From a virus: DNA of 20,165 nucleotides. Below the pieces are notes generated by a model that did not search any database, was not told the DNA's origin, and was given only the letters and a program-made list of their open reading frames with translations. The stretch is from the IMG/VR virus record IMGVR_UViG_3300045425_000070, positions 1 through 20,165 of that record. One strand, written 5' to 3'. Positions 1 through 12,369 of this stretch are shown in pieces. The stretch's first letter is position 1, and each line of letters starts with the position of its first letter. The position numbers and the translations under genes were made by a program.

Positions 1-370
1 ATCTGCTTCTATTGGTCTAGGATGGGACGGAGCAACTCACAGAGAGCTTGCAGTTGATACATCTGGACAGCTGAAAACGGTTGCACAGACATCATCTGGG
101 ACTGTTTCTGTAAGCAAGGTAACAGTTTCAACTGCAGCCATTAGAGCAACTGTGGCAGGAACTGCTCCAAATGCAGCTAGAAAAAGGTTAATTATTTCTC
201 CATTAAAAACAAATACAGGAGCCATTTTTTTAGGTTCTTCATCGGTAACAACAGCAACTGGTATTGAAATAATAGGTCCAGATAGGCTAGAGTTCTTGCT
301 AGATGCTTCAGATTATTATTTAATTTCAGACACTGCTGGTCAAGAAGTTCGTGTTATGGAGGTTGTATAA
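1..370 (+). CDS. C-terminal part of a phage virion beta-sandwich protein (5'-truncated)
   Basis: The reading frame is open from base 2 to a TAA at 368-370, so this is the end of a gene that starts left of the window. The visible 122 residues begin with a Gly/Trp-rich stretch (GLGWDG) followed by AVDTSGQLKTV, a style common in phage virion decoration or head-fibre proteins. They end with a compact all-beta module (residues RKRLIIS to VRVMEVV) that resembles a small domain found at the C-terminus of many phage structural proteins. It is a virion component by position: the next gene starts on its stop codon (TAATG), at the head of a run of tail genes. A GGAGG at 358-362, inside this gene, serves the next start. 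The exact role (head fibre, decoration or tail) cannot be decided from this fragment. The coding assignment is firm, the function is not. Confidence 0.75.
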   Translation, partial: SASIGLGWDGATHRELAVDTSGQLKTVAQTSSGTVSVSKVTVSTAAIRATVAGTAPNAARKRLIISPLKTNTGAIFLGSSSVTTATGIEIIGPDRLEFLLDASDYYLISDTAGQEVRVMEVV

Positions 371-2127
371 TGAGAAAATTAATAGCGACATTTTTACTTC
401 TTAGTTTTAATTCATATGCTCTCCCTCCGGTTGCGGTAAACGGAGAGCAGCAAACAAATGCTTATGTTCAAAATATAAAGACACCAAACTCTCAAACAAC
501 TTCGTTGGGTGGTATTGATACTAGGATTGAGTCAGGAAATACTAACCTTTTAGTGAACCCAAGTTTTGAACATTCTATAGTAACGACTGGATGGACTATT
601 ACAAACGCTACTGGTTCAGCAAACCTTACTGACATGGTTGAAGGGAAAAAGGATTTATCCTTGGCTCTTACGGCTGCAATGACAGTAACTCAAGACTCTA
701 CAGTTAACGCTGCAAACTTGGTAGGACTACAAGGTGTAGCTTCTATTAAGATTAAAACATCAGACGTAACAGGATTAAAAGTATGCGTTAGAAATGCTGG
801 AGTAACCTCTACAACCTTATGTGTGGACGTTATAGCTGATGGAACATGGAAGCATGTTATAATCCCTTTTATTATGACAGCTACTTCTAATGGAATAGCT
901 ATTACGTCTACTGGGATAACTGGAACGGTTAAGATTGATGATGCCTTTGTTGGTACATCGGATCCTTTTCAAAACGTAAACGGTGAATCTGTTTTTTCTG
1001 CAAAAGTGTCAAATGCTGGCGTTGTTTCTGATGAATCAGGCGATTTTGTAAATGGAAATTGTGTTGTTTCAGGAACATCCATTTTTACTTGTACATTTAG
1101 TACTTCATTCTTTACAGTTGCACCTAACTGCACGGCACTTATTACGGACTCAAATGCTAGGGTCATTTGGTCTACAACTCAATCGTCCACTCAAGTGGTA
1201 ATTAACACTGCATTTTCTACTACCGGTGCCTTAAGTGCCCAGGCGTTTTCGCTTATGTGCCAAAAACAAGGCAAGGATATACCTCTTGCATCAAGAATCT
1301 ATTCTCAATCAAGCCGAGACTATGATTGGACGGCTTATACTCCTACGTTTGGCGCTGGTTTTGGTTCAGTTGCAGCTCCAAACTGCTTCCATCAAAGAAG
1401 AGGTCACAATCTAGAGGTTAAATGTTTTCCAACATCTGGAACGACAACAGCTGCTATTGGATCAATTACTCTTCCAACTGGATTAACAATAGATTCAGAT
1501 ATAATTAAAGCAACAAACACAACAGCGGCGGCTGGTCAGCATGTTGGGGAATATCAAGCAGCTGCAGGAGCTGGAAATAACTCATGGATTGTAACAGCAC
1601 TTGGAACAAGTACTTCTGCAGTTTATGTAGCAGGTACTTTTGCAGGTTCTTCAAGTTTGATTCCAAGCGCAAATATTGGTGGGATACTTGGTAACTCTAC
1701 ATTATTTTCTGTTAAATTTACCGTTCCTATTTCGGGCTGGTTTGATTATGGTGTTATTGTTGGTTCATTTGCAGGTGTTCCATCTGTTCCTGGTGGTTCT
1801 GGTTCAATTGATACTTTTAGTGCAAGCTATGGTGCCACTGCAACAACAGCTTGTACGGCACCAAGTACGGCGTGTGCTTATCTTAATCAAATAGGTACTG
1901 TTGTTACAAATATCACCCGTGGAGCCAGTGCAGGTATCTATACAATGAATCTTGGTAAAACATATGCTAAGTTAAAGTGCACAGCCACAGTGGCAAACGG
2001 AACATCATCCCGACAAGCAAGAGACATGAGATGCGACAGTTGTTCGTCTTTAGTATTTAACACACAAGATTCTGCCTCAACAGCAGCTGATACTCAGGGA
2101 ACACTTATTTGCCAAGGAACATACTAA
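370..2127 (+). CDS. Secreted, cysteine-rich protein with N-terminal carbohydrate-binding-like jelly roll
   Basis: 585 residues. The N-terminus is a convincing Sec signal peptide: MRK, a hydrophobic core (LIATFLLLSF) and a likely cleavage after SYA (residue 17). Residues about 58-198 look like a CBM_4_9-type jelly roll, starting NLLVNPSFE and closing with the strand VKIDDAFVG. The rest is Thr/Ser/Gly/Ala-rich beta sequence typical of phage fibres. The mature protein has 14 cysteines, many in closely spaced pairs (139/151, 231/241, 339/352 and a cluster near the C-terminus), which suits disulfides formed outside the cytoplasm. The gene starts in a TAATG overlap with a GGAGG site and ends in another TAATG overlap, so it is part of the structural operon. 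Possible roles, all inferred, are a receptor- or glycan-binding fibre exported before assembly, or a protein that coats or modifies the host envelope. No enzyme motif was seen. Confidence 0.8.
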   Translation: MRKLIATFLLLSFNSYALPPVAVNGEQQTNAYVQNIKTPNSQTTSLGGIDTRIESGNTNLLVNPSFEHSIVTTGWTITNATGSANLTDMVEGKKDLSLALTAAMTVTQDSTVNAANLVGLQGVASIKIKTSDVTGLKVCVRNAGVTSTTLCVDVIADGTWKHVIIPFIMTATSNGIAITSTGITGTVKIDDAFVGTSDPFQNVNGESVFSAKVSNAGVVSDESGDFVNGNCVVSGTSIFTCTFSTSFFTVAPNCTALITDSNARVIWSTTQSSTQVVINTAFSTTGALSAQAFSLMCQKQGKDIPLASRIYSQSSRDYDWTAYTPTFGAGFGSVAAPNCFHQRRGHNLEVKCFPTSGTTTAAIGSITLPTGLTIDSDIIKATNTTAAAGQHVGEYQAAAGAGNNSWIVTALGTSTSAVYVAGTFAGSSSLIPSANIGGILGNSTLFSVKFTVPISGWFDYGVIVGSFAGVPSVPGGSGSIDTFSASYGATATTACTAPSTACAYLNQIGTVVTNITRGASAGIYTMNLGKTYAKLKCTATVANGTSSRQARDMRCDSCSSLVFNTQDSASTAADTQGTLICQGTY

Positions 2128-4053: not shown

Positions 4054-6723
4054 ATGAGTACAATTAAAGTATTTTCACTTGGTGGGATTGATAAAAAATC
4101 AAATGATTTAACAAGAGCAACTGATAAAGCGTCTGACATGGTAAACATGGAGTACGACACTCAGTCTACTCTTAAAAAACGCAATGGCTTTACTGAACAA
4201 ATAGTAGATGCTGGGTCGGCTGCTAACTTTGATGATATCTTTTATTACAATTCTAAGGATGAGATTATTGGTGTAAACACTGGCGATAGTTCTATAAAAG
4301 TATTAAGAAGAAGTGGATCTGACTTTATAACAAAAACGATACCTACTCCCTCAGGAATACCTGTTTGGTCAGTAAATCCTTCTATTTCATATTGCGAAAA
4401 TCAAAACAACTTATATTTTACTAATACTGACTACTCTACATATGTAATGAAATACGATGGAGATAGTCTAATTAGAGCTGGCTTGCCTACTCCTAGAATA
4501 TCAGACTCAACAACAAAAATAGATAAATATCCTACATGGGCAGGATCAGCGGGACCTTCATTTTCAAGGGTTTTTTATTCATACAAGGATTTAAACGGAA
4601 ATATTATGTATTCTCCGTATGTTCAATATGCATATGGAACGTCTTTAACAGATATAACTTTAAATTCTTTTAAAGAAGATCCAAACTGTAATGAAAATGG
4701 CTTTTTTTCAAAGTTTTGCTTTGTTCCATCATCAAATTCAATTGGAGGATCAACTTTTACTGCATCTGATGCAACTATTTCTTTGTATGAGCCAGGGATA
4801 AGCTCCATTGAAATATTGCAAGCAAATATAACGTCTGGTTTTGGTTTCTCTACCTTAACATCAGGAGATATTTTGTCTTGGGGTGCAACAACAGCAACTG
4901 TAGACTCTTCATTTCCAAGCTATGTTGCAGGTGTTTATGTTGGAGATATTTATATTTTAACTAGTTTATATACAGCTGGTCCAACTGGACCTATTACTGG
5001 GAGTAAGGCTGCTGCTTTATCCGCAGCAAACAAAACATTAGTAGTCACTAGGCACAATTATGTAGCTGGTGATAAATTTTTAATGGATACAGAAAATAAG
5101 TTTCTTTCTATTGATTCAACAGGGCTAAGTTCTTTAATATTAGATGTTGAATCAGTTACAAATGATGTTACAACAGCAAGTTTTACTGCAGTTAGGTCTG
5201 GAAATATTTTAACAGTTTTAACAATAGCATCTGGAGCAATTGCAATTGGTTCAAAAATAAATGGAACAGGAGTTACTGCCGATACTTATGTTGTTTCTTT
5301 TTTAACTGGTTCTGGTGGGCTTGGAACTTATACAGTTACAACTTCTCAGTCTCTTTCTAGCAGGGCAATGACACAAACGACAAGTTCAATTACATTTACA
5401 GCTGATTCTTTTAAATCAAGATCAATATCTCTTCTTTCTGCCCTTCTTGCTTATCCTATAGAATATCCATTAGACATAAGGTGCAAGGTTTTAATTGCTT
5501 TCTCTAGTAATGAAACTGATAATTATACTTTAAGTGCCTATGTATTAGACAATTCGTCAATAACAAACACAATAAATGCAGCTGTTCAACAACAAGTTTT
5601 TTATGGATACGGAAGACCAAGCACACCAACGCCGCTTGCAGATCTTTACGATTCTGATTATCAGAAATTAATGCCACCAATTTGTAAATACATAACATCG
5701 TATGGAAATCAAATTATATACTGCTCAATAAAGTCGTATTTTTCTGGATATGCCAATATAAACACTTTTCCAAATCAAAGAATAGATTTTGCAAATACTT
5801 CTCTAATTATATACTCAGATACATCTGTTGGTGATAGCCCTGAAGGTTTCTCTGGCTTTAATCTTATAAAAGTAGGTGAAACTTGGGATGGTGACATTAC
5901 TGGAGCAAGAAGATGTAATGATGCTTTAATTATATTTAAAAACAGAGGTATTTTTTCTATAGATGGTGATCTTGTTGATAGTCAATTTTCATTGAGAAAA
6001 ATAAATAGCAATTTCTCGGGATGTACTTCTCATAAGTCTATTATGGATGCAGATGAAGGTACTTACTTTCAATCTCATAATGGTCTTTATTTTACAAATG
6101 GTATAAATGCATCAAAAATCTCATATGAAATTGACTCTTTATTTTTATCAGGCACATACCTTAATACAAGATCAGTAAGGCTTAAAAAGAAACAAAAATC
6201 ATTGTTTTACGTCCCAGATATACTTTCTGGAACATACAAAATAGTAATAATTGATTATTATTATAATCAAATTTATATGTGGAATTCAGCCACTCTTCCG
6301 GCTTCTGGAATTATAGAGGATAAAGATGGAAATGTTTATTTCTGTGACGGAGCAAAACTGTTTAAATTTAACGATAGCTATACTGATAATGGTACAGCTA
6401 TTTCATGTTTATACAGTACAACATGGCACCATGCTGGAGAGCCATCTCTTAATAAGAAATGGCTATCGCTAAGAACGTTTGGATTAACTAGTGACGCCTT
6501 TACAGCAACTATTACAACGGAAGGTGATTGGCAAACTGGTACATATTTAACAACAAATTCATCTGTTTATGGGGCAACAACTCAAACTGACTTTAAAATG
6601 CTGGATATGCAAACTAAAAAAGCACTAAGAATTAACTTTAGTAATTCAACAAACAATGAGAATATGATACTCACTGGTTATGAATTAACTTACGAGATGT
6701 TTAATGTCGTTGATAAAAACTAA
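4054..6723 (+). CDS. Tail nozzle / tail tubular protein B-like (gp12-like)
   Basis: 889 residues, the largest protein in the window. The N-terminus (about 6-32, FSLGGIDKKSNDLTR...DMVNME, then a Lys/Arg-Asn-Gly-Phe turn) is the usual opening of podovirus nozzle/stabilisation proteins that form the distal tail tube. The body is beta-rich and punctuated by aromatic strands as in the nozzle beta-propeller (for example VWSVNPSISYCENQNNLYF and GNQIIYCSIKSYFSGY). Around residues 376-446 there is a separate Gly/Thr/Ser-rich domain (GSKINGTGV...TGSGGLGTYTVTTSQ), a mobile beta module seen in many unrelated phage structural proteins. The ATG directly follows the adaptor stop, with AGGAG in the upstream gene. 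The 3' end overlaps the next gene by 20 bases. Confidence 0.85.
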   Translation: MSTIKVFSLGGIDKKSNDLTRATDKASDMVNMEYDTQSTLKKRNGFTEQIVDAGSAANFDDIFYYNSKDEIIGVNTGDSSIKVLRRSGSDFITKTIPTPSGIPVWSVNPSISYCENQNNLYFTNTDYSTYVMKYDGDSLIRAGLPTPRISDSTTKIDKYPTWAGSAGPSFSRVFYSYKDLNGNIMYSPYVQYAYGTSLTDITLNSFKEDPNCNENGFFSKFCFVPSSNSIGGSTFTASDATISLYEPGISSIEILQANITSGFGFSTLTSGDILSWGATTATVDSSFPSYVAGVYVGDIYILTSLYTAGPTGPITGSKAAALSAANKTLVVTRHNYVAGDKFLMDTENKFLSIDSTGLSSLILDVESVTNDVTTASFTAVRSGNILTVLTIASGAIAIGSKINGTGVTADTYVVSFLTGSGGLGTYTVTTSQSLSSRAMTQTTSSITFTADSFKSRSISLLSALLAYPIEYPLDIRCKVLIAFSSNETDNYTLSAYVLDNSSITNTINAAVQQQVFYGYGRPSTPTPLADLYDSDYQKLMPPICKYITSYGNQIIYCSIKSYFSGYANINTFPNQRIDFANTSLIIYSDTSVGDSPEGFSGFNLIKVGETWDGDITGARRCNDALIIFKNRGIFSIDGDLVDSQFSLRKINSNFSGCTSHKSIMDADEGTYFQSHNGLYFTNGINASKISYEIDSLFLSGTYLNTRSVRLKKKQKSLFYVPDILSGTYKIVIIDYYYNQIYMWNSATLPASGIIEDKDGNVYFCDGAKLFKFNDSYTDNGTAISCLYSTTWHHAGEPSLNKKWLSLRTFGLTSDAFTATITTEGDWQTGTYLTTNSSVYGATTQTDFKMLDMQTKKALRINFSNSTNNENMILTGYELTYEMFNVVDKN

Positions 6724-7151: not shown

Positions 7152-8078
7152 ATGCCAACATCAACAATCCCAGCAAAACCAGTAATAGGACAGCCAAATG
7201 GACATGGTGGACTTAATACCATATATGACATTTACGATTGGGAAAAGAATTTTGGAGGCATAATATCAAATGAAGGTCCTGATAATGATATTTTTCAGAT
7301 TAGTGGGACTCCTGAAGCGCAAGCAGGTGGTAAAGAAGGTCTTGATTTTGCTAGACGTCTTTATGGTCAAGGTCTTGGAGATATAGGTAGAGACGCAGCT
7401 GATTACAGTAAAAAAGTTAAAGAAAGATTAGATACAGACTCATCTAAGGCTGATTTGTATAGACAAGGCGCTAATAGAAGAATTGCTCAAAGTGCAAACA
7501 GGTTAGGAATGGCTGGTGCTAGTATGGGTGAAGCTCAAGAGCAAGCTTATAGACGATCTAATGCTGAAGCAGCCGCAATGAATCAAGAATATAAAGATAA
7601 AGCATTAGCTCTTTATGGTCGTAACATATCAGCAAAACAACAAGGCTTGGCTGGTCAATATATGGCTGGAAAAGGAATTGGAAACGCATCAACTAAGGTA
7701 AATGTTCCTGAACCTGACTCTGGGTGTTTCTTGTGTATAATTGCAACAAATATGTTTTTAAACAGAGAAATAAATAAAAATGCATTGTTGGACATATTTA
7801 GATTTGGAAGGTCTTTTAATAGGGAAACATTTATAGGTTACATATTAATTGCCAACATATTAATAAAAATAAAAAACGGAATTTTTATAAAAAAAGTTAT
7901 GGTTCCTGCTTTTATAAGTTATTCTAATAATAAACCAAACATGGTTGCAAACCTTACAATCTTTTTAAGTAAAATTGTTGGTAAAATATATAGCAAAACT
8001 AATTTTACTTATCACTTAAGAGTTGTGGATAAATATAGAAAAAATCATGAGATAATGAAAAGGAAAATAAAATGCTAG
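7152..8078 (+). CDS. Internal virion-type protein with Cys-containing C-terminal module
   Basis: 308 residues in two unlike parts. Residues 60-178 are Ala/Gln/Arg-rich helices (GANRRIAQSANRLGMAG, EAQEQAYRRSNAEAAAM, AGQYMAGKGIG) of the type found in podovirus internal core proteins such as T7 gp14-like ejection proteins. A linker with PEPDSG leads at residue 191 into a module starting GCFLC (Cys192, Cys195). That module continues with a helical hydrophobic/basic region (DIFRFGRSFNRETFIGYILIANILIKI, VMVPAFISYS) and ends in a basic tail. I have seen modules opening with a CF(I/L) motif and a Gly-Tyr helix at the C-terminus of other phage virion proteins, but cannot name the family. The DNA for this part (about 7730-8078) is noticeably richer in A/T than the first part. 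The stop overlaps the next start by 7 bases. Confidence 0.65.
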   Translation: MPTSTIPAKPVIGQPNGHGGLNTIYDIYDWEKNFGGIISNEGPDNDIFQISGTPEAQAGGKEGLDFARRLYGQGLGDIGRDAADYSKKVKERLDTDSSKADLYRQGANRRIAQSANRLGMAGASMGEAQEQAYRRSNAEAAAMNQEYKDKALALYGRNISAKQQGLAGQYMAGKGIGNASTKVNVPEPDSGCFLCIIATNMFLNREINKNALLDIFRFGRSFNRETFIGYILIANILIKIKNGIFIKKVMVPAFISYSNNKPNMVANLTIFLSKIVGKIYSKTNFTYHLRVVDKYRKNHEIMKRKIKC

Positions 8079-11906: not shown

Positions 11907-12095
11907 ATGCTACAAAAAATCATATCAGGCTTACTTAACTGGTTTCTTTTATCAGTTATTTTGCCTGGTATGGCTTTCATATGGGATGTAATAAAGCTAA
12001 GAAAAGAAAATAAAGAACTAAAGAAAAATATAGAGGATTTAAAGAGTGCAAAATCTAAAAAAGATATTGATACTGCTATTGATAATCTCCCTTAG
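11907..12095 (+). CDS. Small membrane protein with coiled coil (i-spanin/Rz-like candidate)
   Basis: 62 residues: an N-terminal membrane segment at about 8-28 (GLLNWFLLSVILPGMAFIW), then a Lys/Glu-rich coiled coil (RKENKELKKNIEDLKSAKSKK) to the end. The lipoprotein gene begins 49 bases before its stop in another frame, the arrangement of Rz/Rz1-type spanin genes. It is much shorter than typical i-spanins (about 100-150 residues), and the basic residues right after the membrane segment could also favour a cytoplasmic C-terminus, as in a holin. It shares architecture with the small membrane protein at 2529-2711. Spanin subunit or holin are the two best readings. Confidence 0.55.
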   Translation: MLQKIISGLLNWFLLSVILPGMAFIWDVIKLRKENKELKKNIEDLKSAKSKKDIDTAIDNLP

Positions 12096-12369
12096 TTCTT
12101 GTAAAGGCGACTTTCCATCTATCAAGCCTCAGGTACGCTGTGTAAGTGTGCTAATGAGCGAAGAGATAATCAATGGGATCCCACATTATTCTGGTTATTG
12201 CAGATGTCACTTGTATGAGTGGAGTTCAGCAAGAATAGGAAGAATAGGTGAGTCTGTCGATTATGACCTTCTTAAGTGTAATAAGCTCATAGGCTTTGAA
12301 CCTGATACATATGTCAATGTTTGGACATGGTGGGAAAGTATTAGGCTTTGGCTAAATAGACAAAAATAA
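12046..12369 (+). CDS. Outer-membrane-type lipoprotein, possible o-spanin (Rz1-like)
   Basis: 107 residues from a GTG start at 12046, chosen because a GAGG lies about 9 bases upstream and because it yields a complete lipoprotein signal: two Lys, a hydrophobic run ILILLLII and the lipobox LSSC with Cys19. Lys follows the Cys, so no Asp at +2 retains it in the inner membrane. The mature part has four further cysteines (VRCVS, GYCRCH, LLKCN), suggesting disulfides, and ends in an aromatic helix (VWTWWESIRLWL). It overlaps the upstream coiled-coil gene by 50 bases in a different frame. Rz1 proteins are normally short and Pro-rich, which this is not, so it would be a divergent o-spanin or another late envelope lipoprotein. 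The lipoprotein call is firm, the spanin role inferred. Confidence 0.65.
   Translation: MQNLKKILILLLIISLSSCKGDFPSIKPQVRCVSVLMSEEIINGIPHYSGYCRCHLYEWSSARIGRIGESVDYDLLKCNKLIGFEPDTYVNVWTWWESIRLWLNRQK

Follow-up and report, generated by a model that had tools for sequence, protein, structure and literature searches.

A gene at a phage tail-fibre position encodes a predicted sugar-binding, fibre-like protein with a Sec-type export signal and paired cysteines

The window is the whole stretch of DNA analysed here, 20,165 bases of an IMG/VR virus record. At a tail-fibre position it carries a gene whose product is predicted to be a sugar-binding, fibre-like protein, with cysteines in pairs behind a bacterial export signal. 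Comparison of related sequences gives good support for export, leader cleavage and disulfide bonding of this protein, and about forty diverse phages have fibre-type proteins that retain a Sec leader and in which cysteine pairs covary. The reading that we prefer as a whole, in which an exported, disulfide-bonded fibre joins virions at lysis, stands in our judgement at an even chance. If these proteins are virion fibres, phage assembly gains a periplasmic, post-lysis step, and their disulfide-stabilised receptor-binding domains are a source of robust binders. Otherwise, they are secreted look-alikes of fibres by which phages mask receptors. Gene finders that require phage structural proteins to lack a leader would overlook such fibres.

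The gene, its leader and its neighbours

The fibre gene (Table 1) is placed in a structural operon, with gene X on one side and tail genes on the other, and its ATG overlaps the stop codon of gene X. Because the next in-frame methionine comes only at residue 89, no nearby start would skip the leader alone. The 585-residue protein was without a match in Pfam at E 1, in PHROGs, among PDB sequences and in an IMG/VR peptide scan, and neither the whole protein nor its B module matched public phages by tblastn.

Table 1. Features of the fibre-like gene and its upstream border (positions in the window)
Feature	Position	Strand	Basis
3' end of upstream gene X, tail/virion-type protein, no cysteine here	2..370	+	comparison with relatives
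Ribosome-binding site GGAGG, 7 nt 5' of ATG	358..362	+	sequence
Gene of predicted exported fibre-like protein, 585 aa	370..2127	+	ORF call, ATG start; homologues by module searches
Sec signal peptide, residues 1-17, predicted cleavage after Ala17	370..420	+	own heuristic; retention in relatives; model
Post-cleavage segment LPPVAVNGEQQ..., residues 18-55	421..534	+	comparison with relatives
CBM-like jelly roll (N module), residues 56-200; candidate disulfide C139-C151	535..969	+	structure match, profiles
A module, residues 201-315; candidate disulfides C231-C241, C254-C297	970..1314	+	profiles, cysteine columns
B module, residues 317-467; candidate disulfide C339-C352	1318..1770	+	profiles, cysteine columns
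C-terminal module (C module), residues 463-585, all-beta, cysteines 495, 502, 537, 555, 558, 581	1756..2124	+	model and structure match

The protein begins with MRKLIATFLLLSFNSYA, followed after the predicted cleavage by LPPVAVNGEQ. Our own heuristic, which looks for n, h and c regions and small residues at -3 and -1, finds the complete layout expected of a Sec leader cut by signal peptidase I and kept in homologues: an n-region with Lys/Arg, a hydrophobic core and Ser-Tyr-Ala before Leu at residues 15-18. Residues 2-13 are modelled as a helix by AlphaFold2. The rule thus places the mature N-terminus at residue 18, where the preliminary description had put it, and many relatives have the motif A/G/N/S-L-P-P-T-S/T-S-K/R at mature position 1-2. 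That description had also proposed that the protein is exported and that homologues be compared for retention of the signal; by the same heuristic, the full leader pattern is kept in 39 distinct proteins, the window's included, 31 of them full length (near-identical copies removed), and the sole complete relative without it is L015. On this basis we infer Sec export of the fibre-like protein itself. A lipoprotein of the Llp type was considered and rejected, as the lipobox cysteine at +1 is absent: residue 18 is a leucine and no cysteine precedes residue 139.

The ubiquity of the leader is not a selection effect, because the relatives were gathered through modules that lie far from it: IMG/VR scans used an alignment of the C-terminal module, then the A module and then the N module. 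As a control for the leader rule, we applied it to 280 ORFs from the window and related loci, each 120 aa or longer, and 20 passed; 16 belong to the fibre family, three are other predicted exported ORFs of L020 and L040 (two of them tail-fibre-like) and one is unrelated. The two fibre-like ORFs, L020:2492-5179 (895 aa) and L040:6104-7909 (601 aa), each encode, immediately upstream of the exported fibre, a second leader-bearing protein that contains no cysteine, and L020:9523-9921 is a third leader-bearing ORF.

The first relatives were reached from the nozzle protein, which led to L002, and from the helicase, which led to L003-L005; searches of these whole records yielded syntenic leader-bearing homologues in two, G003 (524 aa) and G004 (251 aa). 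Members of the family come from phages of two kinds, podovirus-like ones with capsid, SU10-type adaptor and nozzle genes and siphovirus-like ones with genes for a tape measure and a distal tail protein, and the fibre-type gene lies in the structural region of every relative with enough context to judge. As for hosts, the terminase of the L015 genome matches T7-like phages of many hosts and indicates no single one. In the window, a membrane-anchored coiled-coil ORF (11907-12095) is overlapped by a cysteine-rich lipobox ORF (12046-12369; ...LSSC/KGD), lipobox ORFs similar to the latter are present in relatives, and the two look like an overlapping inner and outer spanin pair, which points to a diderm host with a periplasm.

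Upstream, the C-terminal domain of gene X is 61% identical to that of the podovirus-like L014 and 56-59% identical to those of the siphovirus-like L019 and L022. Outside this domain the X genes of the window, L014, L019 and L022 differ, making gene X a mosaic, and all four loci have a common leader style and the start/stop overlap between X and fibre. Because the domain is conserved among otherwise differing X genes, the 3' end of X and the fibre gene seemingly move as a cassette. Fibre modules behave in this way, and the arrangement would permit contact between X and the fibre without proving it; the linkage could be plainly physical. Putative homing endonucleases, free-standing and GIY-YIG- or HNH/NUMOD-like by eye, border the fibre gene at L013:16829-17386, L019:6366-6869, L020:6366-6893 and L044:8641-9144, and might drive the mobility of the cassette.

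Further neighbours deserve mention in their own right. Right behind the fibre gene, with an ATG that overlaps its stop, the window encodes a small Dps/ferritin-like protein (2127-2528); a three-sequence profile matches structures of Dps and neutrophil-activating protein (best E 4.5e-4), and in L014 and L050 a homologue is encoded a short way downstream of the fibre. In the nozzle protein (4054-6723), residues of about 366-442 match tail-fibre PHROGs and by eye form a seeming insertion relative to the nozzle proteins of L002 and G004. The internal-virion-like protein at 7152-8078 has a hydrophobic C-terminal extension of about 115 residues, and comparable though diverged extensions occur in L002, L003 and L005.

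Tail-fibre modules and paired cysteines in the mature protein

The kinship of the mature protein with tail fibres is evident from the one complete relative that does not carry the leader. L015, a protein of 1322 aa, comes from a T7-like genome, in which its gene is flanked by that of an internal virion protein and by packaging genes. It starts with PF03906, the domain that anchors T7 tail fibres to the virion (E 2.7e-22), and matches many tail-fibre PHROGs. Residues 395-1322 of L015 align collinearly with L016, which has a leader, over residues 60-979 of the latter (62% protein identity; DNA identity of at least 75% over several blocks), and L016 itself matches the tail-fibre family phrog_16641 (E 2e-22). 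Judged from these sequences, leader plus linker and virion anchor are exchanged for one another in this pair. Module profiles detect all four modules (N, A, B, C) in L015 as well as in the window protein, which therefore shares its modules with a protein bearing a recognised virion anchor; in the window protein, searches of Pfam and PHROGs recognised no N-terminal domain for virion attachment, and a Sec-type leader stands there instead. Since the same rod of modules is found behind an anchor in L015 and behind an export leader in the others, the modules are tail-fibre material, and the comparison identifies the mature protein as predicted tail-fibre or tailspike material.

The full-length AlphaFold2 model has a mean pLDDT of 60 and is weak outside the N and C modules. 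Within it, residues 51-198 resemble carbohydrate-binding modules of families CBM4/16/22/61 (VIA Z about 10.5-13.5 over about 130 residues), in line with the glycan-binding-like jelly roll claimed earlier, and also domains of CBM-like fold in two tailspikes, CBA120 TSP4 and Klebsiella K2-2. At the sequence level, two family members match CBM_4_9 below threshold (best E 0.0012), and the window protein gives no CBM_4_9 match above the family cut-off in Pfam. Modelled alone, the C module (pLDDT 72) appears to adopt the fold of a receptor-binding C-terminal domain: its best match is to the C-terminus of the phiAB6 tailspike (Z 9.2, rmsd 2.3, 88 residues), the next unrelated structure scores Z 7.1, and weaker matches include AP22 gp53, the Pam1 tailspike and R-pyocin fibres. 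Foldseek alone gave no significant match for this module.

All 14 cysteines lie in the mature part. A recount of the preliminary figures for the gene (cysteine number, percentage and mature start) found each of them correct, with the cysteine content of about 2.4% becoming 2.39%, the nozzle protein's about 1.1% becoming 1.12%, and every other virion-type ORF of the operon at 1.2% or below (0 to 1.1% among the neighbours of the gene). We compared the cysteine columns across the family through the N, A, B and C module profiles. Cysteines 231 and 241 are both present in 20 of 25 A-module copies, both absent in five and never found singly (P 1.9e-5); 339 and 352 occur together in 5 of 15 B-module copies and are jointly missing from the other ten (P 3.3e-4); and for 139 and 151, ten copies hold both, one holds a single cysteine and four hold neither (P 0.0037). 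The cysteine pairs 139/151, 231/241 and 339/352 named in the preliminary description are thus gained and lost as pairs, as far as sequence comparison can tell. The same holds for 555 and 558, both present in 14 of 16 C modules and jointly lost in two (P 0.0083). Cysteines 254 and 297 are invariant in 25/25 A modules, and 495, 502, 537 and 581 in 16/16 C modules. Together with the three pairs named before, 254/297, 555/558 and the four invariant C-module cysteines are enough to account for all 14, should each be bonded. In the DSSP string of the model, 231/241 and 339/352 stand in direct cross-strand hairpin register, and 139/151 are compatible with such a register, though residues 143-151 are mostly loop. 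None of the three outcomes that would have spoken against the preliminary description has occurred: a leader is predicted, homologues keep it, and cysteine spacing, judged indirectly from this register, does not contradict the pairing.

A second line of evidence comes from parity. Without the leader, the cysteines add up to an even number in 27 of the 31 complete proteins, at a nominal P of 1.7e-5 that is in truth weaker because the proteins are related, and whole precursors are even in 21 of 31; in all six complete proteins with one leader cysteine the mature count is even. Odd mature counts occur only in L048, L049, L075 and L087, which have a common N-terminal type (PCPxMT...GxCVYN) and in which one cysteine may be free or engaged in an intermolecular bond. 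L015 retains the same cysteines despite having no leader, and cysteines alone are therefore no proof of a periplasmic life. The notion that cysteines simply follow export is weakened by the same protein, and by the second exported fibre of L020 and L040, which has none.

Joining the virion or masking the receptor

The parity and leader data also bear on the view that the hydrophobic N-terminus is an uncleaved peptide for virion insertion or trimerisation, on a protein assembled in the cytoplasm like other fibres. Some tail proteins do attach through short N-terminal peptides, and in L015 a virion anchor is swapped in at the same place. Yet all relatives with a readable N-terminus other than L015 show the full n/h/c pattern with Ala-x-Ala-like sites, such leaders are nearly absent among the other large ORFs of the same phages, and cysteine counts become mostly even only once the leader is removed, including those of all six proteins with a leader cysteine; we regard this view as improbable.

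Of the two functions offered in the preliminary description, a fibre that joins the virion late or a coat on the host envelope or released particles, the evidence leans towards the first. We propose a receptor-binding protein of the fibre or tailspike type, composed of phage modules that can be exchanged and headed by a Sec leader and a short conserved segment in place of the virion anchor. It would be produced late, together with the structural genes, exported through Sec and cut after Ala17. Folding in the oxidising periplasm would then form seven disulfides, namely 139-151, 231-241, 254-297, 339-352, 555-558 and two more among 495, 502, 537 and 581. Once holin, endolysin and spanin open the cell, finished fibres could encounter virions and attach, most likely by the new N-terminus left by signal peptidase and possibly to the gene-X protein, and the attached fibres would recognise glycans on the next host. 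Leader, module identity, paired cysteines and tail-fibre kinship have the support of sequence and comparison, whereas we infer which disulfides form, that attachment follows lysis and what the fibre attaches to. Four observations make us favour virion joining: in each of ten related records only one protein per genome has the A module; G004 and G005 show no large fibre-like ORF other than this one; the C-terminus is of the tailspike type; and between L015 and L016 a virion anchor in one protein takes the place of the leader in the other. Against virion joining counts that we know of no tailed phage with fibres assembling from the periplasm. The wider proposal, that widespread tailed phages of diderm hosts secrete fibres which are oxidised in the periplasm and attached at lysis, with the N-terminus made by signal peptidase as docking tag and a swap of leader and anchor relative to the cytoplasmic T7-type fibre, we put forward tentatively, at slightly below even.

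The strongest competitor would have the protein exported and disulfide-bonded, and never on the virion: a soluble or envelope-held binding part would mask receptors. This we consider possible, if on the doubtful side, and the same holds for its supposed uses, blocking superinfection by phages of the same glycan or keeping released virions off debris. Export would deliver the protein to the location of the receptors, and its modules are those of the real tail fibre of L015, so that a mask would bind the same receptors as such competitors. Separate leader-less fibre candidates exist in G003 (918 aa, L010:15286-18042) and G013 (755 aa), and the exported protein therefore need not be the adsorption fibre of these phages. 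There is also a published precedent in P1312 ORF22, a phage protein with a signal peptide and a CBM4_9 domain that was proposed to prevent superinfection (PMC4569894). However, given only one A-module protein per related genome, a mask that matches the phage's own virion fibre must be unrelated to that fibre in sequence. The lack of another visible large fibre in G004 and G005 and the retained tailspike-like C-terminal domain speak against masking as well, and the protein has neither a lipobox nor a membrane anchor to hold it in the envelope.

That the phage instead places a host-benefiting adhesin on the cell surface, as a lysogenic-conversion or morphological factor, would suit a protein predicted from sequence to be exported, modular and glycan-binding-like, but is very improbable for a gene inside a structural operon, and C-module and Dit-like tail-protein queries found no relative in 84,980 bacterial and archaeal genomes (short-peptide-pattern scans, which could miss some), which argues against stable prophages.

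Comparison with known systems

Tailed-phage fibres are taught as cytoplasmic products that are built inside the cell. At least one study reads a lack of signal peptides as a point in favour of phage origin (PMC6199706). Tail-fibre modules, CBM folds and Sec leaders are individually known; what appears to be new is that a Sec leader is conserved in the tail-fibre-type proteins of many phages, for which a limited search of the open-licence literature returned no direct precedent.

With CBM4/16/22/61 the window protein has the jelly-roll fold of residues 51-198 in common, in contrast to the missing Pfam match. Its N module (Z 11-13) and C module (Z 9 to phiAB6) are alike in fold to parts of tailspikes and fibres such as phiAB6, CBA120 TSP4, the Klebsiella K2-2 tailspike and Kp7 gp52, from which it differs by an export leader and up to seven candidate disulfides, and no beta-helix depolymerase domain was found in it.

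Llp-type lipoproteins are phage-encoded, exported superinfection-exclusion proteins. Like these and P1312 ORF22, which likewise combines a signal peptide with a CBM (PMC4569894), the window protein is phage-encoded and predicted to be exported; unlike them, it shows no lipobox and no enzyme domain was found, and it consists of tail-fibre modules with a tailspike-like end. Also close are the T7-type fibres (gp17-like, PF03906), represented by L015. Across about 930 residues, L015 agrees with L016 in the order of the N, A, B and C modules, at the identity given above. The window protein shares all four modules with these fibres, and carries a Sec leader and an LPPTSSK-like segment in place of the virion anchor.
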